Part shown: positions 12,919-33,388 of the stretch, in pieces
How positions within the stretch are numbered: position 1 is the first letter of the stretch
Layout of the letters: each line of letters begins with the position of its first letter
Origin: Burkholderiaceae bacterium
GTDB taxonomy: Bacteria > Pseudomonadota > Gammaproteobacteria > Burkholderiales > Burkholderiaceae_C
Reading direction: 5' to 3'
DNA length: 43,641 bases
Assembly: GCA_017856435.1 (NCBI GenBank)
Contig: JAFMFB010000019.1
Span: 1 to 43,641, forward strand
Notes under the pieces: generated by a model
What the model was told of the DNA's origin: nothing
Seen by the model: the letters and a program-made list of their open reading frames with translations, nothing else
The model's database searches: none
Made by a program: the position numbers and the translations under genes

Positions 12919-15900
12919 ATGACCGACCTGTCTGCCGAATTTCAGGCCCTGGCCAATTACCGACCCAAGAACAAGGTGCGCTTTGTCACTGCGGCCAGCC
13001 TATTCGATGGCCACGATGCAGCCATCAATATCATGCGCCGCATTTTGCAGGGTATGGGGGCCGAGGTAATTCATCTGGGGCATAACCGCAGTGTCGATGA
13101 AGTAGTGACCGCTGCCTTGCAGGAAGACGTGCAGGGCATCGCGGTGAGTTCCTACCAGGGCGGCCATGTCGAATATTTCAAGTACATGGTGGACCTGCTT
13201 CGCGCGCGGGGCGGGGCGCATATCCAGGTCTTTGGCGGCGGCGGCGGGGTGATTGTGCCGCCTGAAATCCGTGAGCTGCAGGCCTACGGCGTGGCTCGCA
13301 TCTACAGCCCGGAAGACGGGCAACGCATGGGTCTGCAGGGCATGATTGGTGAAATGGTCATGCGCTGTGACCAGGATCTGAGCGGGCATGCGCCCCAGGC
13401 CATTGAGGCGATCCAGGGGCATGAAGCGCAGCATTGGCGGGCCCTGGCTCAGCTCATGACGGCGCTGGAAAACGCCAAGGTAGCGCCGGCCTTGCTCAAG
13501 ACCCTGCGGGAGGTGGCCGCGCGGAAGAAAATCCCGGTGCTGGGCATTACCGGCACCGGAGGCGCTGGCAAGAGCTCGCTGACCGATGAGTTGATCCGAC
13601 GCCTGCGCATTGACCAGCACGACCGGCTGCGGGTGGCGGTGATCAGCATCGATCCGTCGCGCCGCAAGAGTGGCGGTGCGCTGCTGGGTGACCGCATCCG
13701 CATGAACGCCATCGGGCCCTGGGGCCAGGTCTTGGCGCAGGGCTCGGTCCAGGCCCATGACCATTCAGTCGCCCTTGATGAGCAGACGCAAACCGCAATT
13801 GACCCTGGCGCCCAGCAGCAACGGGTGTTCATGCGTTCGCTGGCCACCCGAGATACTGGCAGCGAGATCAGCGCCGCCTTGCCCGATGTGCTGGCCGCTT
13901 GCAAGTGCGCTGGCTTTGACCTGATCGTGGTGGAGACCTCCGGCATTGGTCAGGGTGATGCGGCGATCGTGCCCCATGTGGACATACCGCTGTATGTCAT
14001 GACGCCCGAGTTTGGCGCGGCCAGCCAATTGGAAAAGATTGACATGCTGGACTTTGCCGAGTTTGTGGCTATCAACAAATTCGACCGCAAGGGTGCCCCC
14101 GATGCCTTGCGTGATGTCGCCAAGCAGGTTCAGCGCAACCGCGAGGCCTGGACCACGCCCACCGAACAGATGCCAGTGTTTGGCACCATGGCTGCGCGCT
14201 TCAATGATGATGGCGTCACGGCCCTGTACCAGGCGCTCAAGCCCCGTCTGGCTGAGCGCGGTTTGAGCTTGCAGGCGGGCAGCCTGCCGCCGGTATCGGT
14301 GCGCCATAGCAGCAACCAGTCGCCGATTGTGCCGGCGCAGCGCAATCGCTATCTGGCGGAGATTGCCGACACCCTGCGCAGCTACAAGCGGCGGGTGAAG
14401 GCGCAGGTCAGACTGGCCCGTGAGAGGCAGCAGTTGCTGGCCGCGGCCGATATGCTCAAGCAGGACAAGCCTAACCGAGCCAAGGCGGCCGAGGCGGTGA
14501 TCGATCTGGCGCAGCAGCGCGAGTTGCAACTCGATGATGATGTCAACACATTGCTGGCGCAGTGGCCGGCCATGCAGCAGGCTTATGCGGGTGATGAGTA
14601 TGTCGTAAAAATTCGCGACAAAGAAATCCGCACGGCGCTGACGAGCAAGTCACTCTCGGGCACAACCCTTCGCAAGGTGGTGCTGCCGCAGTTCGAGGAC
14701 CATGGCGAAATTCTCAAGTGGCTGATGCTGGAGAACGTGCCAGGCAGCTATCCCTACACCGCTGGCGTGTTCGCCTTCAAGCGGGAAAACGAAGACCCAA
14801 CCCGCATGTTTGCCGGTGAGGGCGATCCGTTCAGGACCAACCGCCGCTTCAAGTTGCTGAGTGCGGGGATGCCGGCCAAGCGACTGTCTACCGCCTTCGA
14901 CTCGGTCACCCTCTACGGCAGCGACCCCGATCTGCGGCCCGATATCTACGGCAAGGTGGGCAACTCCGGGGTGTCGATCGCCACGCTGGACGACCTCAAG
15001 GCACTCTACGATGGCTTTGACCTGTGTGACCCGGCCACCTCGGTGAGCATGACCATCAACGGCCCGGCACCCACCATCCTGGCCATGTTCATGAATACGG
15101 CCATCGACCAGTACCTCGACAAGTTCCAGCGTGACAATGCGCGCGCACCGTCTGACACCGAAGCGCAAAAAATCCGCGCCTGGGTGCTGGAGAATGTGCG
15201 CGGCACGGTGCAGGCCGACATTTTGAAAGAGGATCAGGGACAGAACACCTGCATCTTCTCCACCGAGTTCAGCCTCAAGGTGATGGGCGACATTGCGCAG
15301 TATTTTGTGCACCATGGCGTGCGCAATTTCTACTCGGTCTCGATCAGTGGCTACCACATCGCCGAGGCCGGCGCCAACCCGATCAGCCAGCTGGCCTTTA
15401 CCCTCTCCAACGGCTTGACCCTGGTGGAGGCATACCTGGCACGCGGCATGCATATTGATGACTTCGCGCCCAACCTGTCCTTTTTCTTTTCCAACGGCAT
15501 GGACCCGGAATACTCGGTGCTGGGCCGGGTGGCGCGGCGCATCTGGGCAGTGGCCATGAAAGAGAAATACGGCGCCAACGAACGCAGCCAGAAACTCAAG
15601 TATCACATCCAGACCAGCGGTCGCAGCCTGCATGCCCAGGAAATCCAGTTCAATGACATTCGCACCACCCTGCAGGCGCTGATTGCGGTCTATGACAACT
15701 GCAACAGCCTGCATACCAACGCCTTTGACGAGGCCATCACCACGCCCACTGAAGACAGCGTGCGCCGCGCCATGGCGATCCAGCTGATCATCAACCGTGA
15801 ATGGGGTCTGGCCAAAAACGAAAACCCCAACCAGGGGGCGTTTGTGATCGAAGAGTTGACCGAGCTGGTGGAAGAAGCCGTGCTGGCCGAATTCGAGCGG

Positions 15901-16299
15901 ATCAGTGAGCGCGGTGGTGTGCTGGGGGCCATGGAAACCGGCTATCAGCGCGGCAAGATTCAGGACGAGAGCATGCATTACGAAATGCTCAAGCACACGG
16001 GTGAGCTGCCCATCATCGGTGTCAATACCTTTCGCAACCCACAGGGCGATCCGGTGCCGGCGCACCTGGAGCTGGCCCGCTCCACTGAGGCAGAAAAGCA
16101 GTCGCAGCTCAACCGGCTGCAAGACTTTCAGGCCCGCCATGCCCAGCAAGCAGCGGCGCAACTCAAGCGGCTGCAGCAGACCGTGATTCAGGACGGCAAT
16201 GTGTTTGAGGTCCTGATGGATGCCGTGCGCTGCTGCTCACTCGGCCAAATCACTCAGGCCCTGTTTGAGGTGGGTGGTCAGTACCGTCGCAATATGTAA
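12919..16299 (+). CDS. icmF: fused isobutyryl-CoA mutase with G-protein chaperone domain
   Basis: 1126 aa, the usual size of IcmF. Order of parts: B12-binding domain at about 20-150, with DGH at 30-32 giving the cobalt-ligating His and GGGGGVIVP later; MeaI-type GTPase at about 200-470, with Walker [10 protein letters not shown] near 212-220 and NKFD for guanine; mutase substrate barrel from about 560 to the end, with [18 protein letters not shown] and [21 protein letters not shown] in its family style. It interconverts isobutyryl-CoA and n-butyryl-CoA with adenosylcobalamin, and the GTPase loads and guards the cofactor. YTAGVF rather than the Tyr-containing loop of methylmalonyl-CoA mutase supports the short-chain acyl specificity. 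No other acyl-CoA gene is nearby. Confidence 0.95.
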
Positions 16300-16368: not shown

Positions 16369-17001
16369 ATGACAACGCTGACCGCCTTGCAGGTCATGCA
16401 GGATGGGCCAGTCATTCCGGTCATTGTCCTGCGTGACACCTCCCATGCCCTGCCGCTGGCCAGGGCATTGCTGGCGGGAGGTCTCCGCATGCTGGAGATC
16501 ACCTTGCGAACCCCGCAGGCCTTGGCCTGTATCGAGATGATCGCCAAGGAGCTGCCCGATGTCGCTGTTGGCGCCGGCACCGTGCGCAACCCGGGCGATG
16601 TGATGGCTGCCAGGCGCTGCGGGGCCCGCTTTCTGGTCAGCCCTGGCTTCACCCGGGACCTTTCTTTGGCGGCCCATGATGCCGGCCTGCCGCTGTTGCC
16701 GGGCGTGGCCACTGGCAGTGAGATCATGACTGCCATGGACCTTGGGCACACTGAATTCAAATTTTTTCCGGCAGCCCAGGCTGGGGGCGCGGCCATGCTC
16801 AAGGCATGGAGCGGTCCCTTTGCCGAAGCGCGTTTTTGCCCGACCGGCGGCATTACTGCAACCAACGCGCCAGAGTATCTGGCCTTGCCCAACGTCAGCT
16901 GTGTCGGCGGCTCATGGCTGGTACCCGCCGATGCCTTGGCGCGTCAGGACTGGGCGGCCATTTCTGCCCTGGCCAGCGCGGCTGTGCAACTTCGTCGGTG
17001 A
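16369..17001 (+). CDS. eda: KDPG/KHG aldolase
   Basis: 210 aa class I aldolase splitting 2-keto-3-deoxy-6-phosphogluconate to pyruvate and glyceraldehyde 3-phosphate. Glu43 and Arg47 in LEITLRT, the Schiff-base Lys131 in EFKFFPA, GAGTVRNP and the phosphate loop CPTGGI are all present and line up with E. coli Eda with an offset of two residues. It is followed after 54 bases by the FAH-family dehydratase gene. It is not near edd or zwf, so it probably serves sugar-acid catabolism encoded in this window. KdgK at 39786 would supply its substrate. The aldolase at 41632 belongs to the related DgoA group. Confidence 0.93.
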   Translation: MTTLTALQVMQDGPVIPVIVLRDTSHALPLARALLAGGLRMLEITLRTPQALACIEMIAKELPDVAVGAGTVRNPGDVMAARRCGARFLVSPGFTRDLSLAAHDAGLPLLPGVATGSEIMTAMDLGHTEFKFFPAAQAGGAAMLKAWSGPFAEARFCPTGGITATNAPEYLALPNVSCVGGSWLVPADALARQDWAAISALASAAVQLRR

Positions 17002-17055: not shown

Positions 17056-18234
17056 ATGCAGATTCAAGAGCATCTGACGATTTCCGCTGCCCTGCCCAGT
17101 GATGCGGCGCGCGCCACCCTGGTTGGACGGGTCTGGCTTGAGGGGCAGGGCGCGGTGCTGGTGCGCGTCACACCGCAAGCTGTTTTTGACATCAGCACAG
17201 TTGCGCCCACCATGTCCGATCTGCTGGAATTGCCCGACCCAAGCGCGGCTGTGCGCGCCTGTGCCGGGGTGATGCTGGGTGACACCCCGTCCATCCTGAA
17301 AAACTCGGCCCATGATCAGCGCAAGACCAGCCAACCCTGGTTGATGGCGCCCAATGATCTGCAGGCCATCAAGGCCACCGGTGTGACCTTTGTGAACTCG
17401 GTGCTCGAGCGGGTGATTGAGGAGCAGGCGCGTGGTGACGCGGCCAAGGCCGAGAACGTGCGCCAGGCCGTGGTGGCTGTGATCGGTGAAAACCTGAGTC
17501 ATGTCAAGCCAGGCTCGCCCGAAGCCGCCCGCTTGAAGGAGGTGCTGGTGGCGCAAGGTGCCTGGTCGCAGTACCTGGAGGTGGCCATTGGTCCCGATGC
17601 CGAGGTGTTCACCAAGTCGGCGCCAATGAGCGCCGTAGGCACCGGCGCCGAGGTCGGCATCCACCCGCGCAGCCACTGGAACAACCCCGAACCCGAAATC
17701 GTGCTGGCAGTCAACAGCCGGGCTCAGGTGAAGGGAGCTACGCTGGGCAATGATGTGAACCTGCGCGACTTTGAAGGGCGCAGTGCCTTGCTGCTGGGTA
17801 AAGCCAAGGACAACAATGCGTCTTGTGCAATCGGTCCCTGCATTCGCCTGTTTGACGACCACTTTGACATGGATGATGTGCGAGGCTGCGACCTGGCGAT
17901 GGAGGTCCGAGGTGCGGGCGGCTTTGTGATGCAGGGCGTCAGCTCAATGAGTCAGATCAGCCGTGATCCGCTGGAGCTGGTCAGCCATGTGATTGGCCAA
18001 TACCATCAGTATCCCGATGGGGTGATGTTTTTTCTGGGCACCATGTTCGCGCCCATCCAGGATCGCCACGGACCCGGTCAGGGTTTTACCCACGAAGTGG
18101 GTGACCTGGCCATGGTTTCAACACCCTCGCTGGGAACCCTGGTCAACCGGGTCAACACCTGCGACAAGATCACGCCGTGGACCTATGGCGCGCGCGCCCT
18201 GATGCGCGATCTGGCCCGGCGTCAACTGGTGTAA
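17056..18234 (+). CDS. fumarylacetoacetate-hydrolase-family 2-keto-3-deoxy sugar-acid dehydratase (XylX/AraD1-like)
   Basis: 392 aa, longer than simple FAH hydrolases and of the size seen in 2-keto-3-deoxy-pentonate dehydratases. The metal-binding Glu-x-Glu is at 212-214 (NNPEPEIVLAVN), followed by GNDVNLRDFEGRSALLLGKAKDNNAS, typical of that branch. Such enzymes make 2-oxoglutarate semialdehyde from 2-keto-3-deoxy-xylonate or -arabinonate. A good ribosome site (AAGAGGA) precedes the ATG. The IlvD-type dehydratase at 36935 could provide the substrate. No oxoglutarate semialdehyde dehydrogenase is seen in the window. Exact substrate is inference. Confidence 0.82.
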   Translation: MQIQEHLTISAALPSDAARATLVGRVWLEGQGAVLVRVTPQAVFDISTVAPTMSDLLELPDPSAAVRACAGVMLGDTPSILKNSAHDQRKTSQPWLMAPNDLQAIKATGVTFVNSVLERVIEEQARGDAAKAENVRQAVVAVIGENLSHVKPGSPEAARLKEVLVAQGAWSQYLEVAIGPDAEVFTKSAPMSAVGTGAEVGIHPRSHWNNPEPEIVLAVNSRAQVKGATLGNDVNLRDFEGRSALLLGKAKDNNASCAIGPCIRLFDDHFDMDDVRGCDLAMEVRGAGGFVMQGVSSMSQISRDPLELVSHVIGQYHQYPDGVMFFLGTMFAPIQDRHGPGQGFTHEVGDLAMVSTPSLGTLVNRVNTCDKITPWTYGARALMRDLARRQLV

Positions 18235-18242: not shown

Positions 18243-18986
18243 TCAGGATGCCTTGAGCGCCGGCGCCGGCTTGCTCAGGCGCGGCAACCGTTTGCGCGAC
18301 ACCAGCACCTGATCGATGTCCTGGCTGGCCCCATCGATCAGGGCCAGGATGGCCTTTTCTGCCTTCAGCGGCTTGTGGGCGATGACAGCATCGAGCACGG
18401 CGCGGTGCAGGGGGAGGGAGGCGGCCGTCCCCCCCTTGCGGGCGGTGGAGAGCTCAAAACTGGTGCGCAACAGAGCTGACAGCGCCTTGCCCATCTGGAT
18501 CAGCAGCGGGTTGCGGCAAGCCTTGAGCAGGCTCATATGAAATTGAAGGTCATGGGACACATAGTCCCCCCCTTTCTTCACCGCCAGCGCCATGCCCGCG
18601 TAGGCGGCTTCGATTTCGGCGATGTCCAGATCGGTGGCGCGCAAGGCGGCCAATCGTACGCTGGCTGGCTCCACCACCCGGCGCAACTCCTGCAGATTGC
18701 GCAAAAACTCCGGCGTCAGCCCAACCCTTGCTTGCCAGGCTATGACATGCTGATCAAACCAGTTCCATTGCTCGGCGGGCAGCACCCGGGTTCCCACTTT
18801 GGGCCCGGTACTGACCAGTCCCTTGGCAATCAGTGACTTGACTGCCTCTCGGATGACCGTTCGACTGACTCCCAGCGCTTCGCCCAGCACCGGCTCAGGC
18901 GGCAGGGTCGAGCCCACCGGGTATTGCCCTTTGAGAATGGCTTCACCCAGAAAATCCAGGGTGTTGCCATGCACATTCTTGATCAT
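18243..18986 (-). CDS. GntR-family transcription regulator, FadR/FCD subfamily
   Basis: 247 aa. The winged helix-turn-helix lies in residues about 7-75 (TLPPEPVLGEALGVSRTVIREAVKSL, then STGPKVGTRV). The FCD ligand domain fills about 95-235; RRVVEPASVRLAALRA, HDLQFHMSLLKA and the later HRAV provide the metal-binding Asp/His set. This subfamily often senses sugar acids such as galactonate, gluconate or uronates and represses the neighbouring catabolic genes. Its ATG overlaps the udh stop by four bases (ATGA), so it is co-expressed with udh. It is the only dedicated transcription factor in the window and the likely reader of the motif at 19897 and 36839. Confidence 0.92.
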   Translation of the reverse strand: MIKNVHGNTLDFLGEAILKGQYPVGSTLPPEPVLGEALGVSRTVIREAVKSLIAKGLVSTGPKVGTRVLPAEQWNWFDQHVIAWQARVGLTPEFLRNLQELRRVVEPASVRLAALRATDLDIAEIEAAYAGMALAVKKGGDYVSHDLQFHMSLLKACRNPLLIQMGKALSALLRTSFELSTARKGGTAASLPLHRAVLDAVIAHKPLKAEKAILALIDGASQDIDQVLVSRKRLPRLSKPAPALKAS

Positions 18987-19849
18987 AGGCCGTCCACAGG
19001 ATAGAGCGGGCCATCATCGATGCGCTGGGTGTCGCCCACGAACTCGATCGGGCAGTACATCCCGCCGTGGAACTGGACTGCGATCGGATCCTCCTTGGGT
19101 GAATTGGCCAGCACTTCAGCGGCAAAGTCCTCGGCATTGTCCTCGGGCCGGTAACCCAGAAACTTGACCCGGGTGTTGTCCCAGCGGCTTCGCAAGTTGT
19201 TGGAAACGCCATAGACCGCGACAAAATGATAGGCGGGATGTTCAACACAGCGGTAAGTCAGCTGGGCCATGTCGCGGTGGCTGATCCAGGTCAGAAGATG
19301 GCGGGACTCACTGGGCCGGTTGTTGGGGCGAAAGGATCCGATCCGCAGACACGCCACCGAAAGACCGTACTTGTCGGCGTACAGACGTCCCAGCGCCTCG
19401 CCAAATACCTTGGACAGGCCATAGCGGCCATCCGGGCGCGGCGCCACATCGGTGTCAATGAAAGTTTCGCGCCGGTGAAAGCCAATCGCGTGGTTGGAAC
19501 TGGCAAACACCACACGCCGCACGCCGGCAGAGCGGGCGGCCTCAAAGACGTTGTAGCAACCCTCGATGTTCAGGGGCAGGACCTTGCTCCAGACATCTTC
19601 TTCAGGGACCCCCGCGAGATGGATGACGCAGTCAATTCCCTGCAGGCTCTGCTCCAGTGCCATAGGGTCGCGAATGTCCACCTTGAGCACTTCTTCGCCC
19701 GGCCCGGCCGGGTCCTGAGGCGCGATGTCGGTCAGACGCAATAAGGCATAGCGCCCCTTGAAGTGGGAGCGGAGCACGCGGCCGATGTTGCCGGCAGCGC
19801 CGGTGATCAGAACACGCAGGGAAGCAGGTTGGTCAAAAGGTGTAGGCAT
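18983..19849 (-). CDS. udh: uronate dehydrogenase (NAD-dependent epimerase/dehydratase superfamily)
   Basis: 288 aa short-chain-type protein. GAAGNIGRV at about 17-25 binds NAD; FASSNHAIGF and RPDGRYGLSKVFGE hold the Ser and the catalytic Tyr-x-x-x-Lys. The pattern closely follows characterised uronate dehydrogenases (DPAGPGEE, IHLAGVPEEDVW, IGSFRPNNRP, WDNTRVKFLGYRPEDNAE). It oxidises D-glucuronate or D-galacturonate to the aldarolactone in the cytoplasm. It is divergent from the RraA-like/UxaA/enolase operon, which may act on the resulting aldarate. No lactonase gene is evident in the window. Confidence 0.88.
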   Translation of the reverse strand: MPTPFDQPASLRVLITGAAGNIGRVLRSHFKGRYALLRLTDIAPQDPAGPGEEVLKVDIRDPMALEQSLQGIDCVIHLAGVPEEDVWSKVLPLNIEGCYNVFEAARSAGVRRVVFASSNHAIGFHRRETFIDTDVAPRPDGRYGLSKVFGEALGRLYADKYGLSVACLRIGSFRPNNRPSESRHLLTWISHRDMAQLTYRCVEHPAYHFVAVYGVSNNLRSRWDNTRVKFLGYRPEDNAEDFAAEVLANSPKEDPIAVQFHGGMYCPIEFVGDTQRIDDGPLYPVDGL

Positions 19850-19896
19850 GGCGCTGAAATTATGTCGGGTTTAGCAGGGTTAGCGGGTTCGGGTTA

Positions 19897-19910
19897 ATCA
19901 TATGACCAAT
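19897..19910 (+). promoter_or_regulatory. candidate operator ATCATATGACCAAT
   Basis: Lies in the 145-base spacer between udh and the RraA-like gene, 84 bases before the latter's ATG. It matches the site at 36839-36852 in 13 of 14 bases and in the same orientation. Read on the other strand it is ATTGGTCATATGAT, like the TTGGT-centred operators of FCD-type GntR regulators. A related TTGTCATATT occurs at 19959-19968. The match is visible; the regulator assignment is inference. Confidence 0.6.
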
Positions 19911-19994
19911 GCTAAGATGCCTTGGCCTCGGTTTTTTACAGTAATAACCCTGAATGACTTGTCATATTTTCCCTGTACGCAAGGAGATGTCGGC

Positions 19995-20642
19995 ATGAGT
20001 ACCCTGACGGAGCGCCTGCTCGCCTGTTACAGCGGCGCAGTGCATGATGTGTTGCGTGGCCGGGGCCATGAGAATGTTGTGCTGCCGCCGCAGATCCGTC
20101 CGCTGGACCCATCGCTCAAGCTGGCCGGACCGGTGTGGACAGTTTCCGGTCATATTGATCGCACCCTTACTCGGCACGAGACCCTGCTGGGCTGGACACG
20201 CCTGCTGTCCAAAGCGCCATCGGGCCATGTGGTGGTGTGTCAGCCGCATAACCATGAGGTGGCGCTGATGGGGGAGTTGTCCTCCGAGACGCTCAAGCAC
20301 AAGGGGGTTCTGGGCTATGTGGTTGATGGTGGTTGCCGTGACACCGAATTCATTCTGGATCAGAAATTTCCGGTGTATTGCTCGTTTCTGACCCCAGCCG
20401 ATATCGTTGGTCGCTGGATTGCCGATCGCTTTGGCGAGCCGGTCAATATCGGAACCGTCACTATTTGCAGTGGCGACTATCTGCTGGCTGACCGTGATGG
20501 CGTGGTCATCATCCCCGGTGACATTGCGCAGGAGGTGGTGCAGGAGACCGAGCAAACCATGCAGACCGAGAACAAGGTTCGCACGGCCATTCTGTCGGGT
20601 GTTGATCCGGTGGATGCGTACGAGCGCTATGGCAAGTTCTGA
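19995..20642 (+). CDS. RraA-like family protein (putative keto-acid aldolase) in sugar-acid operon
   Basis: 215 aa from ATG 19995; AAGGAG eight bases upstream fixes this start, although the frame is open from 19902. The key motif VVDGGCRDTEF has Arg115-Asp116, the substrate/metal pair of the class II aldolases with this fold. GDYLLADRDGVVIIP and the C-terminal helix are typical. It heads an operon with a split UxaA-type dehydratase, an enolase-superfamily dehydratase and a carrier, and overlaps the next gene. I infer an aldolase or decarboxylase acting on a keto-deoxy sugar acid made by those dehydratases. RNase E regulation is unlikely here. Confidence 0.82.
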   Translation: MSTLTERLLACYSGAVHDVLRGRGHENVVLPPQIRPLDPSLKLAGPVWTVSGHIDRTLTRHETLLGWTRLLSKAPSGHVVVCQPHNHEVALMGELSSETLKHKGVLGYVVDGGCRDTEFILDQKFPVYCSFLTPADIVGRWIADRFGEPVNIGTVTICSGDYLLADRDGVVIIPGDIAQEVVQETEQTMQTENKVRTAILSGVDPVDAYERYGKF

Positions 20643-20937
20643 GCTGTCACGGGCCCTGCAGTTGGCGCCAACGGACAATGTGGTGGTGGCGTTGGCCGAC
20701 CTCAGCCGTGGCGCCACCATTGACGTGGCCGGCGTCTCCCTCAGCCTGCGTGACCCGATAAAGATCGGCCACAAGTTTGCCTTGCGGGAGATTGCCGCGG
20801 GCGAACGCATCCTCAAGTACAACTGCCCGATTGGCTCGGCCACGCGTCGAATCGAGGCTGGTGAATCGGTGCACACACACAATGTGCGCAGCGACTACCT
20901 CGCTAACACGACCCCTGCGATGGCGGTCCCGCCATGA
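20629..20937 (+). CDS. UxaA-family dehydratase small subunit (SAF domain)
   Basis: 102 aa starting MASSELSRALQLAP at an ATG inside the end of the RraA-like gene (14-base overlap), so its translation is coupled. DPIKIGHKFALREIAAGERILKYNCPIG and ESVHTHNV match the N-terminal SAF domain of altronate and galactarate dehydratases. Here it is a separate polypeptide, as in 3-sulfolactate sulfo-lyase (SuyA) and in two-gene sugar-acid dehydratases. It must work with the next gene product, whose ATG overlaps its stop by four bases. Confidence 0.88.
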   Translation: MASSELSRALQLAPTDNVVVALADLSRGATIDVAGVSLSLRDPIKIGHKFALREIAAGERILKYNCPIGSATRRIEAGESVHTHNVRSDYLANTTPAMAVPP

Positions 20938-22133
20938 CCCTGCCGCTCATCGGTTATGCCCGTGCCGATGGGCGCAAGGGTATCCGCAACCTGCTGCTGG
21001 TGGTCTATCTGGTCGAGTGCGCCCACCATGTGGCCCGAGAAATCACGCGCCGCTTTGAGTCCAAGGATGTCCAGTGCATCGGCTTTGCTGGCTGCTACCC
21101 CAACGCCTATGCGCAGGATATGTTGCAGGCGCTGTGCACGCATCCCAATGTGGGAGGTGCGCTGCTGGTCTCGCTGGGCTGCGAGGGCTTCAACCGCACA
21201 GCGCTTGCCAGCGCGGTCTCTGCCAGCGGTCGCCCGGTCCATACACTGAGCATTCAGACCTGTGGCGGTACCCGCGCCACCCTGGAGGTTGGCCAGGCGT
21301 GGGTTGCGCAAGCCCTGCAGAGCCTGCGCGCAGAGCAGCCCGTCCCGATGGATTGGTCCGAGCTCAGTGTGGGCACCATCTGTGGCGGCTCTGACGCCAC
21401 CAGTGGCCTGACCGCCAACCCGGCCATGGGGGTGGCCTTTGACCTGCTGATTGCCAGCGGAGGCACGGCCATCTTCGAGGAGACTGGTGAGCTGATTGGC
21501 ATGGAGGAGCTGATGGCGCAGCGCGCCCGCACCCCTGAGTTGGGCCAGGCCCTGCGCGACAGCGTGGCCAAGGCAGCACGTTACTACGCGACCCTGGGCT
21601 ACCCCAGCTTTGCCCCCGGCAACGCAGAGGGTGGGCTGACCACCATCGAGGAAAAATCGCTGGGTGCCTATGCCAAGAGCGGTCAGTCCGGCATTGACGG
21701 CCTGATCAAACCCGGCACGCGGCCCCCCAAGGGTGGGCTGTACCTGCTGGATGTGGTGCCCGATGGAGAGGTGCGCTTTGGTTTTCCGAACATCAACGAC
21801 AACGCCGAGATTGCCGAGTTGATGGCCTGCGGCTGTCAGCTCATCCTGTTTTCCACCGGGCGAGGCTCGGTGGTGGGTTCAGCGATTGCGCCAGTGATCA
21901 AGGTATGCGCCAACCCGGACACCTATCGCCGGATGCAGGAAGACATGGATGTAGATGCCGGACGCATTCTGGAGGGGCGCGCCAGCCTGGCTCAGGTGGG
22001 GCAGGAAATTTTTGAGCTGATGGGCCGTGTTGGCCAGGGCCAGGCCACCTGCTCGGAGGCGCTGGGACACCAGGAGTTCGTTCTCACTTACAAGCAGTTT
22101 GTTCCGGCAGGCCCAGCCTGTCTGCCAGTTTGA
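20934..22133 (+). CDS. UxaA-family dehydratase large subunit (altronate/galactarate dehydratase type)
   Basis: 399 aa. The catalytic domain of the UxaA/GarD family: GYARADGRKGIRN at the start, SLGCEGFN, CGGSDATSGLTANPAMG, IEEKSLGAYAKSG and FSTGRGSVVGSAIAPVIKVCANP. The Cys residues in GCEGFN, CGGS and VCANP are in places where iron ligands sit in this family. With the small subunit it would remove water from an aldonate or aldarate. Udh across the promoter would make aldarate, so a galactarate/glucarate-type dehydratase fits. A sulfolactate sulfo-lyase (SuyAB) has the same two-gene layout and cannot be excluded by eye. Confidence 0.88.
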   Translation: MTLPLIGYARADGRKGIRNLLLVVYLVECAHHVAREITRRFESKDVQCIGFAGCYPNAYAQDMLQALCTHPNVGGALLVSLGCEGFNRTALASAVSASGRPVHTLSIQTCGGTRATLEVGQAWVAQALQSLRAEQPVPMDWSELSVGTICGGSDATSGLTANPAMGVAFDLLIASGGTAIFEETGELIGMEELMAQRARTPELGQALRDSVAKAARYYATLGYPSFAPGNAEGGLTTIEEKSLGAYAKSGQSGIDGLIKPGTRPPKGGLYLLDVVPDGEVRFGFPNINDNAEIAELMACGCQLILFSTGRGSVVGSAIAPVIKVCANPDTYRRMQEDMDVDAGRILEGRASLAQVGQEIFELMGRVGQGQATCSEALGHQEFVLTYKQFVPAGPACLPV

Positions 22134-22145
22134 CCCAGGCATTGG

Positions 22146-23300
22146 ATGATCATGAAAATCACCGATCTGCAGATCCATGTACTCAAGAGCCCACTGGCTG
22201 AACCCTTCGCCTTCTCACAAGGCTGGGTAAGACAGCGCAGCGCCACGTTGGTGGAGGTCATGACCGATGCTGGTATCAGCGGCTGGGGAGAAGCCTTCGC
22301 GCAGGGGCTGGAGCCACCGGAGATTGCCGCCACCGTGATCGACAAGGCGCTACGCCCGTTGATACTCCATGCTGATCCGCTGGACACCGAAGTGCTATGG
22401 CACCGCATGTACCACCAGACCCGCGACTTCGGACGCAAGGGCTCAGTCGTGGCGGGGATCAGCGCCATCGACATGGCGCTGTGGGACATTGCCGGCCAAT
22501 ATTTTCAGCAACCAATTTACAAGCTATTGGGCGGCGCCTTTCGCACCCGCGTGCAACCCTATGCCACCGGGTTTTACCGATTAAGTGGCCAGGGCGAGGC
22601 ACAACGCCTGGCCGAGGAGGCGCTACGCCATTTCGAGGCCGGTTTCACGCTAATGAAGGTCAAGCTTGGCTATGGCGTTGACGATGACATCGCGGTCATG
22701 CAGGCCATTGGTCGTGCCATTCAGGGCAAACCCATCACGCTCATGATCGACACCAACCATGCTTACGGCCGTGCCGAGGCGCTGCGACTGGGCCGGGCGC
22801 TGGCTGACTACAACTTGCGCTGGTACGAGGAGCCGGTGGTGCCAGAGGATATCCAAGGCTACGCCGAGATGCGCGCCCGCTTGACCATGCCGATTGCTGG
22901 CGGCGAAAACGAGCACACGCTGTTTGGTTTTCGCCAGCTGCTGGGTGCCGATGCGCTTGACGTGGCCCAGCCCGATGTCGGTTCCTGCGGCGGTATTACT
23001 GCGCTGCGTCACATCACGGCACTGGCGCAGTCGCACGGCGTGGCGGTCAATCCGCATGTGTGGGGCTCGGCAATTGCCCAGGCCGCCTCCTTGCAGGTCA
23101 TCGCCGCGCTGCCCCCTGCGCATCATGCCTTGTTTGCGCAGCAACCGGTGCTGGAATACGACCGCTCCTCGCACCCCTTTCGCGAACAGTTGGTGGCCGA
23201 GCCGCTGCGTCAGCAAGCCGATGGCTGGGTGGACATCCCCAGCCGACCTGGCCTGGGTGTGCAGGTGAACCGCGACGTGCTGGAGCATTACCGCGCATGA
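22146..23300 (+). CDS. mandelate racemase/enolase-superfamily acid-sugar dehydratase
   Basis: 384 aa. It has the capping N-domain and a barrel with the mandelate racemase subgroup set: bases Lys171 and Lys173 (LMKVKLGYG), metal ligands Asp202 (MIDTNHAYG), Glu228 (WYEEPV) and Glu254 (GGENEHT), and the Asp277/His304 dyad (QPDVGSCGG, NPHVWG). Such enzymes abstract the proton next to a carboxylate of aldonates or aldarates and eliminate water. Two ATGs six bases apart are possible starts. It sits 12 bases after the UxaA-type gene, so the operon holds two unrelated dehydratases; they may act on epimeric substrates. Confidence 0.9.
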   Translation: MIMKITDLQIHVLKSPLAEPFAFSQGWVRQRSATLVEVMTDAGISGWGEAFAQGLEPPEIAATVIDKALRPLILHADPLDTEVLWHRMYHQTRDFGRKGSVVAGISAIDMALWDIAGQYFQQPIYKLLGGAFRTRVQPYATGFYRLSGQGEAQRLAEEALRHFEAGFTLMKVKLGYGVDDDIAVMQAIGRAIQGKPITLMIDTNHAYGRAEALRLGRALADYNLRWYEEPVVPEDIQGYAEMRARLTMPIAGGENEHTLFGFRQLLGADALDVAQPDVGSCGGITALRHITALAQSHGVAVNPHVWGSAIAQAASLQVIAALPPAHHALFAQQPVLEYDRSSHPFREQLVAEPLRQQADGWVDIPSRPGLGVQVNRDVLEHYRA

Positions 23301-24220
23301 TCATTGTCTTGCTGGGTCAGCTGGTGCCCCTGCTGCTGTTGATCGGATTGGGCTACCTGGCGGGGCGGTGGTTGCAGGTGCAGTCGCAATCCCTGGCCAT
23401 GATTGCGATCTATTTTTTGTCACCGGTCGTGAATTTCGGGGGCGTGGCACAGCTCAAGTTTCAGCCGTCCTACCTGATCCTGCCGCTCCTGCTTTTTGGC
23501 ATTGCAAGCGGACTGGCCTTTGCCAGCCATTGGCTGTCGGCGCGCTGGTACCAGGACAACACCCGCAACCTGATAGCTATGTCGGCCTCGACCGGCAACT
23601 CCGGCTACTTTGGCACACCGGTGGCCTTGGCTTTGCTCGGGCCTAACACGGTGGGCATTTATTTCCTGATGAATTTTGGAGTCGCCCTGTGCGAGAGCAC
23701 GGTGGGTTACTACTTTGGCGCGCGCGGTCATCATGCGGTGCGTGACAGCTTGATCAAGGTGCTGAAGATCCCCTTTGTCTACGCAGTGCTGCTGGGCCTG
23801 CTCTGGAATGCCAGTGGCGCACCCCTGCCAGAGGCCTTTGTTTTATGGTGGCAACGCTTCACCGGAGCCTGGGTCATTCTGGGCATGATGCTGATCGGTG
23901 TGGCGCTCAGCCAGGCGGGGGGCTGGCGCGCCAATCTCAAGCTAACCAGTGTGCTGTTTGGCATCAAGTTTCTTGCCTGGCCGGTCTGCACGGTGGGGTT
24001 TGCGCTGCTGGACAAGTACGTCTTTGGACTGTTTGACGCGAATGTTCACACCCTGCTTTTGATCATCGGGGTGGTGCCCCTGGCGGGCAACACGGTCGCG
24101 TTTGCCACCCAGCACAAGCTGCGCCCCGGGGAAATGGCGGCCGCAGTCCTGGAGTCCACCCTGTTTGCAGTGGCCTACATCCCGGTCATGTTCTGGCTGC
24201 TGCGGCCGCTAGTTTCCTAG
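23297..24220 (+). CDS. AEC-family (auxin efflux carrier/malate permease) transporter
   Basis: 307 aa from ATG 23297, which overlaps the enolase stop by four bases; the frame is open further upstream but that part runs inside the enolase gene. About ten membrane helices, in two repeats; MSASTGNSGYFGTPVALALLG is the family's crossover motif and LIIGVVPLAGNTVAFATQ its C-terminal counterpart. AEC carriers move carboxylates such as malate. As the last gene of the sugar-acid operon it may import the substrate or export an acid product. It overlaps the convergent dehydrogenase gene by 12 bases. Confidence 0.9.
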   Translation: MIIVLLGQLVPLLLLIGLGYLAGRWLQVQSQSLAMIAIYFLSPVVNFGGVAQLKFQPSYLILPLLLFGIASGLAFASHWLSARWYQDNTRNLIAMSASTGNSGYFGTPVALALLGPNTVGIYFLMNFGVALCESTVGYYFGARGHHAVRDSLIKVLKIPFVYAVLLGLLWNASGAPLPEAFVLWWQRFTGAWVILGMMLIGVALSQAGGWRANLKLTSVLFGIKFLAWPVCTVGFALLDKYVFGLFDANVHTLLLIIGVVPLAGNTVAFATQHKLRPGEMAAAVLESTLFAVAYIPVMFWLLRPLVS

Positions 24221-25201
24221 CCGGCCCAGTCGCGTGGCTTGGGTGGCATTGACCGCACCGACGGGCGTACGGCCCTGCAGGATCTCGGCAGCCTGGGCCA
24301 CAGTTTCCAGTGCCTGATGCTCGATCGCCTGGGGTGTGAGTCCGGCCAGGTGCGGGGTGGCGATGACGCGGGGATGGCGGGCCAGCTGCGGTGTGGGCAT
24401 CTGGTCGGGGGCTCGTCCAACATCCAGTGCACAGGCCGCCAACTGTCCGTGGTCAAGGGCGTGCAGCAGCGCAGCCTCATCCACAAGATTGCCGCGTGAA
24501 GGGTTGATGAAGAAGGCGCCGGGTTTCATCATTGCAAATGTTTTGGCGTTCATCAGGTTCTCGGTCTCTTCGGTAGCTACCGCCAGGCAGACCACATGGT
24601 CGGCGCTGGCCAGCAGGTGCGCAAGGTCGACCCGGGCCAAGCCTTCAGGAACTGCGTTCACATAAGGGTCATAGACCAGGACCCGCATGCCAAGGGCGAG
24701 CGCCAGGTCGCACAGGTAACGGCTGATCTGACCATAGCCAATCACGCCCAGCGTGGCGCCGCGCAACTCACTTCCCAGGCGAGCGGTGGGCACGTGCCCG
24801 CCATGGTAGGCCTCGCTATTAAGGCTGATGTCGCGGCACAGGTTGATCATGGCCCCAATGACCCATTCGCTGACCGAGGTGATAAAGCCGGCACTGGCCT
24901 GCGTAACCAGAATGCCATGCTCAGAGGCGGCAGCGACATTGACATTGCGAATATCGATGGCGCAGCGTGAAAAGGCGACCAGATCGGGAAGGCTGGCAAA
25001 AAGTGCTGCCTCGCCGGGTGTCTGGCGGTACGAGATGATGAGTGAGCAGCCGCGGGCAGCCTCGATCAGTTCAGGTGTGGACAGCTCGCGGCCAGTGGTG
25101 TTGAGGCGCACATGGCCCAAGGCGTTCAGGCCGGCCAGGGCTTTCTCGCCGTAATACAGTCGGCGCGCCTCATCGGGGTGGGTCAGAAAGACTTCAGTCA
25201 T
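24209..25201 (-). CDS. D-2-hydroxyacid dehydrogenase family protein with altered catalytic site
   Basis: 330 aa. NAD-binding GVIGYGQIS, catalytic Arg in NPSRGNLVDE and catalytic His in ATPHLAG are present. Where the family normally has the acid of the Arg-Glu-His triad (DVxxxEP), this protein reads DVGRAPDQMP, so the Glu is missing or shifted. It may use the nearby Asp, bind a different substrate, or be a weak catalyst. It starts six bases after the short-chain dehydrogenase stop, so the two form one transcript, divergent from the second TRAP operon. Confidence 0.85.
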   Translation of the reverse strand: MTEVFLTHPDEARRLYYGEKALAGLNALGHVRLNTTGRELSTPELIEAARGCSLIISYRQTPGEAALFASLPDLVAFSRCAIDIRNVNVAAASEHGILVTQASAGFITSVSEWVIGAMINLCRDISLNSEAYHGGHVPTARLGSELRGATLGVIGYGQISRYLCDLALALGMRVLVYDPYVNAVPEGLARVDLAHLLASADHVVCLAVATEETENLMNAKTFAMMKPGAFFINPSRGNLVDEAALLHALDHGQLAACALDVGRAPDQMPTPQLARHPRVIATPHLAGLTPQAIEHQALETVAQAAEILQGRTPVGAVNATQATRLGRLGN

Positions 25202-25207: not shown

Positions 25208-25972
25208 TCAGGCCTGAGAGGAAAACCCGCCGTCCACCGGAATAACGGCGCCAGTGACAAAGTCAGACGCGCTGCTGGCCAGAAAAATGGCGATTCCTTC
25301 AAAATCAGCCGGGTCTCCCCAGCGGCCAGCCGGGGTGCGCGCCAGGACGCGTTCATGCAGGCCGTCAACTTCCTTGCGGGCCGCGCGGGTCAGGTCGGTG
25401 TCGATCCAGCCAGGCAAAACCGCATTGACCTGAATGTTGTCCTTGGCCCAGGCCGTGGCCAGCGACTTGCTCATCTGCACAATGCCGCCTTTGCTGGCGC
25501 TGTAGGGCATGGCAAAGCTGGCGCCAAATATCGACATCATGGAGCCAGTGTTGATAACTTTGCCGCCCCCCGCAGCCAGCATGGCTGGGTAGGCAGCCTT
25601 ACTGCACAAAAAGGCGCTGGTCAGGTTGGTGTCGAGTACCGTCTTCCAGTCGTCCAGTCCGTAGTCCTGGGGCTGCTTGCGAATATTGGTGCCGGCATTG
25701 TTGACCAGAATATCCAGCCTGGCAAAGCGCGCCAGCGTGGAATGCACAATCATCTGGCAGTCTTTCTCCTGGGTGATGTCTGCCTTGAGGCTTAGGACCT
25801 CAGCGCCCAAGCCCTGCAGCTCACGCGCAGCGGCCTCATTTTTTGCGCTGTTGCGCCCAGCGATGGCCAGTTTGGCGCCAGCCCGGGCCAGGCCGCGGGC
25901 CATGCCCAACCCAATGCCCGAATTGCCCCCCGTCACCAGCGCCACCCGACCTGTGAGGTCCATCATCTGCAT
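25208..25972 (-). CDS. short-chain dehydrogenase (KduD / gluconate 5-dehydrogenase-like)
   Basis: 254 aa Rossmann protein. TGGNSGIG binds the cofactor, NNAGTN follows, Ser lies in NTGSMMS and YSASKGG carries the catalytic Tyr and Lys; PVDGGFSSQ ends the fold. The pattern is that of sugar-acid SDRs acting at C5 of 2-keto-3-deoxygluconate or gluconate. It is first in the pair with the altered 2-hydroxyacid dehydrogenase and divergent from the TRAP receptor across 155 bases, so uptake and oxidoreduction of one substrate are likely linked. Exact substrate is not readable. Confidence 0.9.
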   Translation of the reverse strand: MQMMDLTGRVALVTGGNSGIGLGMARGLARAGAKLAIAGRNSAKNEAAARELQGLGAEVLSLKADITQEKDCQMIVHSTLARFARLDILVNNAGTNIRKQPQDYGLDDWKTVLDTNLTSAFLCSKAAYPAMLAAGGGKVINTGSMMSIFGASFAMPYSASKGGIVQMSKSLATAWAKDNIQVNAVLPGWIDTDLTRAARKEVDGLHERVLARTPAGRWGDPADFEGIAIFLASSASDFVTGAVIPVDGGFSSQA

Positions 25973-26127: not shown

Positions 26128-27126
26128 ATGAAAAATTTTGCATTTGGCATCAAACGTCGTGCCGCTCTTGCCCTTGCCGCCCTGACGTTCAGCTTTACCG
26201 CCTCGGCCCAGGTGATTACACTGCACGGCGCCTCCCAGTTCAATGAGGACCATGCCTTCACCAAAACCATGGCCAAGTTCGAAGAACTGGTCAAAAAGTA
26301 TTACGGCAAGCCGATTAACTTTGTCATGCACAACAACAGCTCCCTGGGCCTGGAGAAAGATTATTTTGCCTATATGAACCAGGGCAAGGCTGTTGATTTT
26401 GCGGTGGTGTCGCCGGCCCATATGTCCACCTTCTCGCGCGCGGCCCCTTTTATCGATGCGCCATTTCTGTTTCGTGACCTTGACCATTGGAACAAGGTGC
26501 TCAATTCAGATGTGTTGAACCCGATCGCTGATGAAATTGCGCAGAAGGCCGAAGTCATGCTGATCGGCTATGCCGGCGGTGGCACCCGCAATATCTTTGT
26601 GAACAAGCCCATGCGCAACCTGACCGAGATGCGCGGCATGAAGGTCAGGGTTCAGGGTGCTCCGATTTGGAGCAAGACCTTTGCCGCCATTGGTCTGTCA
26701 CCCACCGTGATTGCTTACAACGAAGTCTACAACGCCATCCAGAACGGGGTGATTGCTGCTGGTGAAAACGAGGCGGCCGGTGTCGAGCAGATGAAGTTCT
26801 TTGAGGTGGCACCCAACCTGAGCATGACCCAGCATGCAATTACCGTGCGTCCCCTGTGTTTCTCCAAAAAGACTTTTGACAAGCTCCCAGCCGATTTGAA
26901 AGCGGCCATTGTCAAGGCTGGCAAGGAAGCAGGTGCCTATGGCCGGGAACTGGAGTCTTCACAGGACACTGCCAAGCTCGAGGCGTTGGAAAAGGCCGGA
27001 AAACTCAAGCGGATTGCCTTTACTGACCGTGCGCGCATGCAGCAGCTGGTGGATCCGATCATGGCCGCCTACGCCAAGGAAATTGGTGCGGATGCCATCC
27101 ACGCCAAGATCATGGCTATCAAATAA
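26128..27126 (+). CDS. TRAP transporter substrate-binding protein, DctP family (sugar-acid type)
   Basis: 332 aa. Sec signal peptide at about residues 1-27 (RAALALAALTFSFTASAQ). Family marks are MRGMKVRVQGAPIW, with the Arg that clamps the ligand carboxylate, and YNAIQNGVIAAGENEA. The first TRAP receptor is of a different branch. TRAP receptors of this branch in Comamonadaceae have been reported to bind hexuronates, which would suit Udh in this window; that is a suggestion, not a reading. It is followed by a stem-loop and then the permease genes. Confidence 0.92.
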   Translation: MKNFAFGIKRRAALALAALTFSFTASAQVITLHGASQFNEDHAFTKTMAKFEELVKKYYGKPINFVMHNNSSLGLEKDYFAYMNQGKAVDFAVVSPAHMSTFSRAAPFIDAPFLFRDLDHWNKVLNSDVLNPIADEIAQKAEVMLIGYAGGGTRNIFVNKPMRNLTEMRGMKVRVQGAPIWSKTFAAIGLSPTVIAYNEVYNAIQNGVIAAGENEAAGVEQMKFFEVAPNLSMTQHAITVRPLCFSKKTFDKLPADLKAAIVKAGKEAGAYGRELESSQDTAKLEALEKAGKLKRIAFTDRARMQQLVDPIMAAYAKEIGADAIHAKIMAIK

Positions 27127-27152
27127 AGCCTAGCCAATTTGCCTGAATCCAG

Positions 27153-27173
27153 GGCGGGAGCTTTCCCGCCTTT
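27153..27173 (+). terminator. stem-loop between second TRAP receptor and permease genes
   Basis: GGCGGGA, loop GCTT, TCCCGCC, followed by only three T, 26 bases after the receptor stop. A second possible stem pairs the G-run at 27180-27184 with CCCCC at 27193-27197, just before the small-permease start, and would hide the G-rich sequence from ribosomes. It is probably an attenuator or RNA-stabilising stem rather than a full terminator. Confidence 0.55.
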
Positions 27174-27197
27174 ACAGGGGGGGGCTAAATTTCCCCC

Positions 27198-27698
27198 TTG
27201 TACAAAAGTTTGTTCATGAAAAAAATGCTTGATCTGTTGCACCGCGGGCTGGTTGTATTGCTGGCCGCCACGGTGGGCATTCTGGTGTTGCCCGTCAGCT
27301 TGCAGATGCTGTCACGCTTCACCGAATTGATTCCTCCCTATATCTGGACGGAAGAGCTGTCGCGCTTTCTGCTGATCTGGATGATCATGCTGGGTGCCAT
27401 GGTCGGCGTGCGGGAAGGCACTCATTTTGATGTGGACCTGTGGCCTAGCCTGAGTGGCCGGGCCAATGCGTTGCTGCGCATCCTGTCCCAGCTTTTTGTT
27501 CTGGTGTTTGCCTTGGTCTATGTGATCTGGGGTGTTGAGTTCCTGCGCTTTGGCTGGAACCAGCACTCCGAACTGGCCGACCTGCCCATGCTCTATATCT
27601 TCATCGCCTGGCCGATCACCGGCTTGGTCTGGATTCTTTTTCTGGGCGAATCCTTTCAAGCCAATCTGAAACTGTTTTTGTACAAGGATACCCAATGA
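27198..27698 (+). CDS. TRAP transporter small permease (DctQ)
   Basis: 166 aa if it starts at TTG 27198; an ATG at 27216 (MKKMLDLLHRGL) is the more natural start and gives 160 aa. Neither has a well-placed ribosome site. Four membrane segments; YIWTEELSRFLLIWMIMLGA and REGTHFDVD are classical DctQ features. It works with the following large permease, whose ATG overlaps its stop by four bases. Confidence 0.9.
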   Translation: MYKSLFMKKMLDLLHRGLVVLLAATVGILVLPVSLQMLSRFTELIPPYIWTEELSRFLLIWMIMLGAMVGVREGTHFDVDLWPSLSGRANALLRILSQLFVLVFALVYVIWGVEFLRFGWNQHSELADLPMLYIFIAWPITGLVWILFLGESFQANLKLFLYKDTQ

Positions 27699-29503: not shown

Positions 29504-30556
29504 TCAAAGCGCGGCAGACTCGACCCCAAAGTCAAGTTGCACTTTCATGGCCCTGGTTTTGTCGCCGGCCAATTCGAAGGCCTGAGCCGCGTCCCTCATC
29601 GTCACCACATGCGAGATGACAGGCCGTAGATCGACCAGATTTTCATTGATGAATTGCACCGCGACGGCAAATTCCGGATGGAAGCGGAAAGTGCCGCGCA
29701 ACTCAATCTCCTTGGCGACCAATTGGGTCAGGGGGATCTGGATATCGCCCCCCATGCCAACGCTGACGATGACGCCGCGCGGGGCCACCACATCCAGCCC
29801 GGTGCGCAGGGCGCGTTCGCTGCCCGAGGCTTCGAACATGAAGTCAAATTGTCCCTTGTCGCGTGCATAGGGAGCCAGTGCATCGGGTTGGTTGGCCAGG
29901 TTGTAGGTTTCATCGGCACCCATGGCCCGCGCACAGGCCAGCGCGGTATCACTCAGATCAGCGGCCACGATGCGCGCGGCACCTGCGCGCCGCAGGCCAG
30001 CGATCAGCATGGCCCCGATCGGGCCGCTACCGGTCACCAGCACCTGTTTGCCAAAGACGCCGCCAGCGCGGTTGATCGCATGCAGGCCAACCGAAAGGGG
30101 CTCGGCCAGGGCTGCGATGGCCAGACTTACGCCGTCGGCCAAGGGATGGGCCTGATGCGATTCAATGACCATCCTTTCACGAAATGCCCCCTGGATATGG
30201 GGAAAGCGCATTGCGCTGCCATAAAAGCGCATGTCCAGGCACTGATTGTGCTGACCTTGCTGACAATAGCGGCATTGGAAACAGGGTCGGGACGGAGAAA
30301 TTGCCACCCGCTGCCCAAGGCTGAAACCTTTGACGCCTTCGCCGAGGGCAGACACCACGCCTGAGACCTCATGGCCCAGGGCCATCGGTTCCTTGAGGCG
30401 AACCGTGCCGAATCCTCCATGCTGAAAATAGTGGAGATCCGAGCCGCAGATCCCACCAAAGGCCACTCGTACCTGGAGCTGACCGGGGCCGGGTAGTTCT
30501 TCGGGCAGGGTGTCGATGCGCAAATCCTTGGGCGCATGGCAAATAACGGCTTTCAT
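29504..30556 (-). CDS. idnD: L-idonate 5-dehydrogenase (zinc alcohol dehydrogenase family)
   Basis: 350 aa. Catalytic zinc ligands Cys37 and His62-Glu63 (GGICGSD, ALGHEVSG) are present, with the structural zinc cysteines at 92, 95, 98 and 106 and the NAD(P) motif VTGSGPIGAM. RFYGSAMRFPHIQGAFRE is characteristic of IdnD. It oxidises L-idonate to 5-keto-D-gluconate. The IdnO-like reductase gene lies 19 bases upstream, which completes the idonate-to-gluconate pair. Confidence 0.88.
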   Translation of the reverse strand: MKAVICHAPKDLRIDTLPEELPGPGQLQVRVAFGGICGSDLHYFQHGGFGTVRLKEPMALGHEVSGVVSALGEGVKGFSLGQRVAISPSRPCFQCRYCQQGQHNQCLDMRFYGSAMRFPHIQGAFRERMVIESHQAHPLADGVSLAIAALAEPLSVGLHAINRAGGVFGKQVLVTGSGPIGAMLIAGLRRAGAARIVAADLSDTALACARAMGADETYNLANQPDALAPYARDKGQFDFMFEASGSERALRTGLDVVAPRGVIVSVGMGGDIQIPLTQLVAKEIELRGTFRFHPEFAVAVQFINENLVDLRPVISHVVTMRDAAQAFELAGDKTRAMKVQLDFGVESAAL

Positions 30557-30575
30557 TCAGGGACCTCCGTGTTGC

Positions 30576-31346: not shown

Positions 31347-31356
31347 GTTGTTCCGT

Positions 31357-32424: not shown

Positions 32425-32445
32425 AAGTTGATACTTTCGGGTAAG

Positions 32446-33306: not shown

Positions 33307-33388
33307 GACTTCTCCTCAGGGGTGACGGGCCAGAAGGCGAAATCAAGGCCAGCGACCTGGGAGGAGACAGGGCGATTTGCTGCAGGGA

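Follow-up and report, generated by a model that had tools for sequence, protein, structure and literature searches.

How does a bacterium that oxidises hexuronates with uronate dehydrogenase (Udh) complete the pathway when no KdgD in its genome scores above the model cut-off? The question is raised by a locus of a Burkholderiaceae bacterium (GenBank assembly GCA_017856435.1). The stretch of DNA analysed, hereafter the window, is the entire 43,641-nucleotide contig JAFMFB010000019.1 of a 2.57 Mb genome that is 98.87% complete. In the window, udh and a gntR regulator gene are on the minus strand, and genes for an RraA-like protein (RraA), a two-subunit UxaA dehydratase (UxaA_N and UxaA_C), an enolase-superfamily enzyme (ENOL) and an AEC-family carrier are on the plus strand. 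Our answer, held tentatively and at somewhat less than even odds, is that the locus encodes a variant oxidative route for galacturonate and glucuronate in which RraA would split 2-keto-3-deoxy-hexarate.

The divergent arrangement had been described in the original prediction, and its coordinates, strands, overlaps and gene families hold in a check of open reading frames (ORFs) and intervals and agree with Pfam and NCBIfam. The GntR/FadR-type regulator gene (18243-18986, minus strand; PF00392 and PF07729) overlaps udh (18983-19849, minus strand) by 4 bases. Between udh and rraA is a putative divergent promoter region (19850-19994) with an 8-base palindrome, TCATATGA, at 19898, which may occur by chance. 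On the plus strand follow rraA (19995-20642; PF03737, 94.9 bits), the small (SAF) subunit UxaA_N (20629-20937; PF08666, 38.4 bits), the UxaA/GarD-type large subunit UxaA_C (20934-22133; PF20629, 273 bits; PF04295, 97 bits), ENOL (22146-23300) and the AEC carrier (23297-24220; PF03547, 45.7 bits). RraA and UxaA_N overlap by 14 bases, the two UxaA genes by 4 and ENOL and AEC by 4, and 12 bases separate UxaA_C from ENOL. The start of RraA was placed at the ATG at 19995, which has AAGGAG ahead of it, and not at the start of a longer ORF at 19902.

As modelled, RraA has the fold and the motif of a class II aldolase. The AlphaFold2 model (pLDDT 88.7) has the fold of 4-hydroxy-4-methyl-2-oxoglutarate/4-carboxy-4-hydroxy-2-oxoadipate (HMG/CHA) aldolase, and Foldseek matched it to the LigK-type HMG/CHA aldolase 3noj with a TM score of 0.82 (E 5.6e-17). 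This match ranked fifth; the first four were 5ir2 and three chains of 3k4i, which are not characterised there as aldolases. An HMG/CHA-type aldolase was also matched in a profile search (58.3 bits). The residues E94-X20-R115-D116 are invariant in all of the 13 selected relatives that were aligned, and 3noj has the same acid-X20-R-D motif. Thus the predicted retention of the class II Arg-Asp pair was borne out. PMC5065237 describes Arg-123 and Asp-124 as the catalytic and metal pair of HMG/CHA aldolase. RraA differs from 3noj in its sugar-acid context and scores far below the cut-off of the LigK/PcmE model (61.6 of 304.5 bits). It is very improbable that RraA regulates RNase E like Escherichia coli RraA: both belong to PF03737, but RraA gave 34.2 bits on the regulator model NF006875 (cut-off 136), the protein is longer, and the operon is catabolic.

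From these genes we infer the following route. Udh would oxidise the uronate to an aldaro-lactone, and ENOL, if it is Gci-like, would open the lactone directly to a 2-keto-3-deoxy-hexarate. The UxaA pair would form a 2-keto-3-deoxy-hexarate from free galactarate. RraA, as a metal-dependent class II pyruvate aldolase, would cleave this dicarboxylic keto acid to pyruvate and tartronate semialdehyde, which GarR and a glycerate kinase from another contig would take onward. Uptake of the acids would fall to the AEC and TRAP carriers, and control of the divergent promoter to the GntR regulator. Since C6 of 2-keto-3-deoxy-hexarate is a carboxylate, the compound is barred from the route through a kinase and KDPG aldolase. 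Therefore some enzyme must act on it directly, and RraA is the candidate of the operon. Plain keto-deoxy-hexonates need no RraA, because the window also encodes a KdgK-like kinase (below its model cut-off), DgoK and two KDPG-type aldolases.

Udh best matches the solved structures 3rft (222 bits) and 3rfx (218 bits), both named uronate dehydrogenase, which supports the predicted uronate oxidation locus. The top PDB matches of ENOL were 4ggb/4hpn (297 bits), under an entry title that says just 'putative uncharacterized protein'; we take 4ggb to be Atu3139/Gci of A. fabrum, a lactone-opening enzyme. UxaA_C matched galactarate dehydratase 6u7l with 143 bits, contains the GD_AH domains of galactarate dehydratase GarD (PF04295 and PF20629), and is 66-70% identical to full-length large subunits in other genomes of the order. 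On the GarD equivalog TIGR03248 (cut-off 730.85), separate scoring of the subunits gave 185.6 and 30 bits. Among 20 fetched neighbourhoods of the UxaA pair, four contained a 2-keto-3-deoxy-fuconate (KDF)-dehydrogenase-like short-chain dehydrogenase (SDR) gene and/or a 2,4-diketo-3-deoxy-rhamnonate-hydrolase-like gene. The UxaA of Sphingomonas parapaucimobilis (62% identity) lies in a locus with fucP, an amidohydrolase, an aldo/keto reductase and a mutarotase. Because such neighbourhoods hold fuconate/rhamnonate-type and fucP genes, the pair is best described as a putative dehydratase of L-galacto-configured acids. This configuration is found in meso-galactarate, which is thus a fair candidate substrate. 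In 12 of the 20 neighbourhoods, another enolase-superfamily-like gene (assigned by eye) is upstream of the pair, directly so in 11.

The novelty that had been seen in the split UxaA did not survive. Adjacent pairs of SAF and large subunit are ordinary and were seen in many loci. Some of these are of L-fucose type, such as the fucP locus of S. parapaucimobilis and the L-fucose locus of Campylobacter jejuni (Cj0482/Cj0483; PMC9100392). According to the same paper Cj0483 is not essential for L-fucose use, so a dehydratase role of Cj0482/Cj0483 is unproven. In contrast to those loci, neither a transporter nor a dehydrogenase for L-fucose was noticed in the window genes scanned.

The remaining genome is consistent with an unusual exit from the pathway. 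No KdgD over the cut-off was found in it (best 107 bits against 373.95), while five of six Udh-bearing relatives of the same family match KdgD at E<=1e-60, four of them over the cut-off. Across 80 of 83 wanted genomes (G352, G357 and G382 were left out), KdgD at E<=1e-60 was present in 2 of 36 RraA-bearing genomes and in 12 of 44 Udh-bearing genomes that are free of RraA (p 0.016). GarR over the cut-off (TIGR01505, 429 bits against 340.75) is on contig C23, together with a glycerate kinase (PF13660, 289 bits) and a hydroxypyruvate isomerase; this kinase is presumably of another family than GarK. Contig C92 (12470-17083, L250) carries a second Udh (46% identical), behind which lie TRAP-type genes recognised by eye and a candidate lactonase of the SGL family. 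The original prediction held that the usual next genes are not in the window. Indeed no KdgD, GarL, GarR, lactonase or alpha-ketoglutaric semialdehyde (alpha-KGSA) dehydrogenase was noticed among the window genes scanned or read, but ENOL may itself be one of the enzymes expected next in the pathway (Gci).

A survey of genomes for co-occurrence of the gene set, which had been proposed with the prediction, covered 399 genomes of the order. RraA was found in 40 genomes at E<=1e-20, and 36 were kept (52% identity or more) after four with weak matches (29-32%) were dropped. ENOL was found in 43 at E<=1e-80, and 32, some partial, were kept after 11 with only 42-45% identity were dropped. The lists for UxaA (24 genomes, some partial) and Udh (64) were used whole. 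RraA and UxaA share 20 genomes (2.2 expected), RraA and ENOL share 25 (2.9 expected), and all three are in 15. The computed P values are 2e-20 for RraA-UxaA and 5e-25 for RraA-ENOL; since related genomes are not independent, these values are not probabilities and counts of genera are fairer. Among 159 genera, nine are shared by each of the two pairs, with 1.1 expected. The genes are far above chance together and mostly unlinked: RraA is on another contig than its partner, or at least 271 kb from it, in 17 of the 20 genomes shared with UxaA and in 24 of the 25 shared with ENOL. Udh co-occurs with RraA more weakly (17 of 36 genomes, 5.8 expected).

The locus is conserved in the nearest relative that we found, locus L056 of a Burkholderiaceae metagenome-assembled genome (isolate DEBay_Sum019D), in which RraA is 93% identical. 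The dN/dS values against L056 are 0.05-0.13 for RraA, UxaA_N, UxaA_C, ENOL, Udh and AEC, so these genes are genuine, evolve under purifying selection and do not come from a chance reading of ORFs. The order in L056 is IcmF, KDPG aldolase, FAH-family protein, an ABC transporter, RraA, UxaA_N, UxaA_C, ENOL, Udh (minus strand), AEC, SDR and TRAP. Thus Udh has shifted its position, yet it stays together with RraA, UxaA, ENOL, AEC, TRAP, FAH and KDPG aldolase. Identities are 73% for the KDPG aldolase, 79% for the KduD/IdnO-like SDR, and 89, 79 and 92% for DctP, DctQ and DctM. GntR and a D-2-hydroxyacid dehydrogenase were not found in the L056 locus. The idea that the operon is a fixed cassette was rejected, as L056 alone keeps it among the loci fetched and the genes are dispersed elsewhere. 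Eleven genomes of the same family were sampled, and RraA, UxaA and ENOL were missing from all of them at the thresholds used; because of this the sugar-acid island looks lineage-specific or acquired.

Several results weigh against RraA as the uronate-pathway aldolase, and they begin with its partner enzymes. ENOL is nearly as close to galactonate dehydratase 5olc (290 bits) as to 4ggb, so that from the scores a lactone-opening cycloisomerase (galactarolactone cycloisomerase, Gci) and a sugar-acid dehydratase are equally likely. For this reason the predicted pair of dehydratases acting in parallel was not supported. Twenty ENOL neighbourhoods were fetched (6.3-18.5 kb; 45% identity threshold), no other window gene was clustered in any of them, and we rejected the proposal that ENOL marks uronate loci. 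Galactarate as the substrate of the UxaA pair is a guess, since some close contexts are L-fucose-type loci. The contrast in KdgD is modest: with only matches over the cut-off counted, KdgD is in 10 of 44 Udh-bearing RraA-free genomes (p 0.056), and among Udh-bearing genomes alone the contrast is not significant (1 of 17 with RraA against 12 of 44 without, p 0.09). The anti-correlation of KdgD and RraA is thus suggestive only. The GarR and glycerate kinase cluster may serve glyoxylate instead. No GarL over the cut-off was present among two of four HpcH/HpaI matches scanned; these two aldolases (290.4 and 237.2 bits against 406.75 for GarL; 348 and 330 bits on the HpaI model, cut-off 368.8) could nevertheless carry out the GarL step. 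The predicted replacement of GarL by RraA is therefore unproven.

The neighbourhoods of RraA add further points of this kind. We kept the best 80 of 288 stretches with RraA relatives, several on short contigs and with flanks of 10 kb or less; genes were called by codon usage and their limits are approximate. UxaA_N/UxaA_C is near RraA in 13 of these 80 loci and FAH in three. RraA relatives lie mostly away from Udh, which is within the flanks in one locus (L056), as is AEC. IlvD is near RraA in 17 loci, and a sugar ABC transporter homologous to that at 32446-35709 of the window is also in 17. SDR, ADH, LDH2 and DMT genes occur together with RraA in 14, and L-fuconate/L-rhamnonate-type SDR and hydrolase genes (KDF dehydrogenase and diketo-hydrolase) in five.

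Such contexts would suit an alternative in which the window is a general sugar-acid island with Udh as a mere neighbour. The acids handled by RraA and the UxaA pair would then be aldonates (L-fuconate, L-galactonate, D-arabinonate or similar), and RraA would split a mono-carboxylic 2-keto-3-deoxy acid into pyruvate and an aldehyde. UxaA relatives (62-68%) beside fucP, mutarotase, amidohydrolase, KDF-dehydrogenase-like or diketo-deoxy-rhamnonate-hydrolase-like genes fit it, and so do the five RraA-UxaA loci with KDF-dehydrogenase-like and diketo-hydrolase-like genes. It is also favoured by L058, which joins RraA to ManD (749 bits, over the cut-off) and a fructuronate-reductase-like gene (369 of 603 bits). 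This explanation appears unlikely, as the window already has the kinases and KDPG-type aldolases for such acids and as Udh is retained in L056 despite having moved. L058 further contains a GntR that is 62% identical to that of the window, a gluconokinase, an ABC transporter and IlvD. Aldol cleavage to tartronate semialdehyde, on the other hand, is favoured by L058 and L097, in which a tartronate-semialdehyde-reductase-like gene (177 and 162 bits, below the cut-off of 340.75) comes after RraA on the same strand. The varied partners of RraA, which include LDH2 and, in Microvirga, Eda with a sugar kinase, would also suit a side role in which RraA acts on a small keto acid, for instance by decarboxylating oxaloacetate or cleaving a 4-hydroxy-2-oxo acid. 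RraA matches NF006731 and TIGR02798, annotated as oxaloacetate decarboxylase, both below cut-off. We regard such a side role as rather improbable, since it explains neither why RraA co-occurs so tightly with the other two enzymes, UxaA and ENOL, nor the overlapping operon.

Aldol cleavage is not the only direct reaction that could be proposed for the hexarate. In the main rival explanation, RraA would replace KdgD, and not GarL, as a dehydratase/decarboxylase that converts 2-keto-3-deoxy-hexarate to alpha-ketoglutaric semialdehyde, from which an aldehyde dehydrogenase would make alpha-ketoglutarate. An RraA-family enzyme that acts on such a compound with chemistry other than aldol cleavage is already known: FlDet of Flavobacterium sp. 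UMI-01, the 2-keto-3-deoxy-D-glucarate (KDGR) dehydratase/decarboxylase of an alginate route. According to PMC8563752, FlDet converts 2-keto-3-deoxy-D-glucarate in this way and is inactive on the other keto acids tested, whereas many relatives of the locus RraA are in aldonate- or fuconate-type loci. The 19 N-terminal residues of FlDet align with another RraA-like protein of the window (1476-2207; score 35, 0 of 500 shuffles as high) and not with the locus RraA (score 16, shuffle mean 15.4). FlDet therefore probably belongs to another RraA subfamily, though 19 residues are thin. The protein at 1476-2207 is of the PRK08245 family (339 bits, cut-off 208).

For the decarboxylating reaction speak the genome without a KdgD over the cut-off, the FAH-family protein of the window, which we take to be XylX-like, and the row at 7902-13301 of L124. 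This row consists of a GH88 family gene, AraD1/GguC, RraA, FAH and an alpha-KGSA-dehydrogenase-like gene (best model alpha-KGSA dehydrogenase, 507.7 bits, below the cut-off of 770). The order fits decarboxylation and counts against cleavage by RraA. FAH is directly behind RraA in L124 and L134. The related NCBIfam model PRK12764 resembles an FAH-RraA fusion, with an FAH protein matching its first half and RraA proteins its second, a hint at joint action of FAH and RraA enzymes. In the genome itself, no alpha-KGSA dehydrogenase over the cut-off was present among four of the six aldehyde dehydrogenases scanned. With the FlDet comparison, this makes a decarboxylating RraA improbable in our judgement.

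Compared with known systems, the locus plausibly represents a variant of the known uronate pathway in which an RraA-family member replaces the usual last enzyme. It shares Udh and a Gci-like enolase-superfamily enzyme with the Udh-(Gli)-Gci-KdgD-KGSADH route of Agrobacterium, but RraA and the UxaA pair are proposed for the following steps in place of KdgD. With the GarD-GarL-GarR-GarK route of E. coli it shares the proposed products and a dehydratase of the GarD/UxaA family, and other contigs of the genome supply GarR and a glycerate kinase. It differs from this route in that the dehydratase is split into two genes, entry is from the uronate through Udh, and the proposed aldolase has the RraA fold and not the HpcH/HpaI type of GarL. 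An RraA-type 2-keto-3-deoxy-hexarate aldolase was not found in the open-licence literature of PubMed Central, a search with most subscription papers outside it. A broader proposal, that an RraA-fold aldolase is a third uronate exit beside KdgD and GarL and forms, with the UxaA pair and a Gci-like enzyme, a widespread and mostly unlinked pathway of Betaproteobacteria that the window holds as one operon with Udh, is possible but doubtful. If it holds, it would explain genomes that have Udh and lack both KdgD and GarL, whose uronate pathway would otherwise be taken for broken. Most of the large RraA family is annotated only as 'RraA family protein', and a defined subfamily would close the uronate gap and assign part of it a role in sugar-acid metabolism. 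An RraA aldolase would also be of use in keto-acid chemistry as a small metal enzyme.

Other genes of the window may contribute to the same metabolism. The KDPG/KHG aldolase of the Eda family (16369-17001, plus strand; PF01081, 241 bits; NF004325 and TIGR01182 over cut-off) and the FAH-family protein (17056-18234, plus strand; PF01557), a candidate 2-keto-3-deoxy-acid dehydratase, adjoin gntR, with 8 bases between the end of FAH and gntR. The best PDB matches of the FAH protein are the FAH protein 9kkt/9kkv (424 bits) and next 2-keto-3-deoxy-arabinonate dehydratase 2q18 (65 bits). Directly upstream of the aldolase, an order kept in L056, is an IcmF-like fused acyl-CoA mutase (12919-16299, named by eye). 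On the other side of the locus are the D-2-hydroxyacid dehydrogenase (24209-25201, minus strand; PF02826/PF00389), whose role is uncertain, the KduD/IdnO-like SDR (25208-25972, minus strand; kduD model 235 bits, under the cut-off of 338.85) and the DctP-DctQ-DctM TRAP transporter (26128-29014, plus strand; assigned by eye), which may take up acids for the locus. A gluconate/idonate/galactonate module spans 29504-42261. Its part at 36935-42261 encodes an IlvD/Edd dehydratase, a D-erythronate-dehydrogenase-like protein, the KdgK-like kinase, DgoK and the second KDPG-type aldolase; IdnD-like and IdnO-like dehydrogenases and the sugar ABC transporter make up the rest. Of all these neighbours, the KDPG aldolase and FAH genes beside gntR and the part at 36935-42261 had been overlooked in the original prediction. 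Close relatives of its ABC transporter and IlvD adjoin RraA in other genomes.

Some neighbours of RraA elsewhere are worth recording. An APH-family kinase and an enolase paralog are near RraA in Betaproteobacteria (L057, L060 and L084) and on a plasmid of the haloarchaeon Halomarina (L275:12462-14731), and the kinases of the two groups are 34-37% identical. All four of these enolases have Ala and Asp where ordinary enolase has His and Glu, presumably His373 and Glu168. They seem to form a subfamily of their own that acts on another substrate and is common to two domains of life. The suggestion that the kinase and enolase prove a finish from glycerate to phosphoenolpyruvate was rejected, because all four enolases are altered and may use another substrate. 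A PhyH-type dioxygenase gene is beside RraA on the opposite strand in L107, L109, L111 and L135, with the same ABC transporter family; Pfam supports it in L111. At the edge of the contig, a Fic/DOC-domain protein is encoded at 11-1060, and a short ORF follows at 1061-1312.

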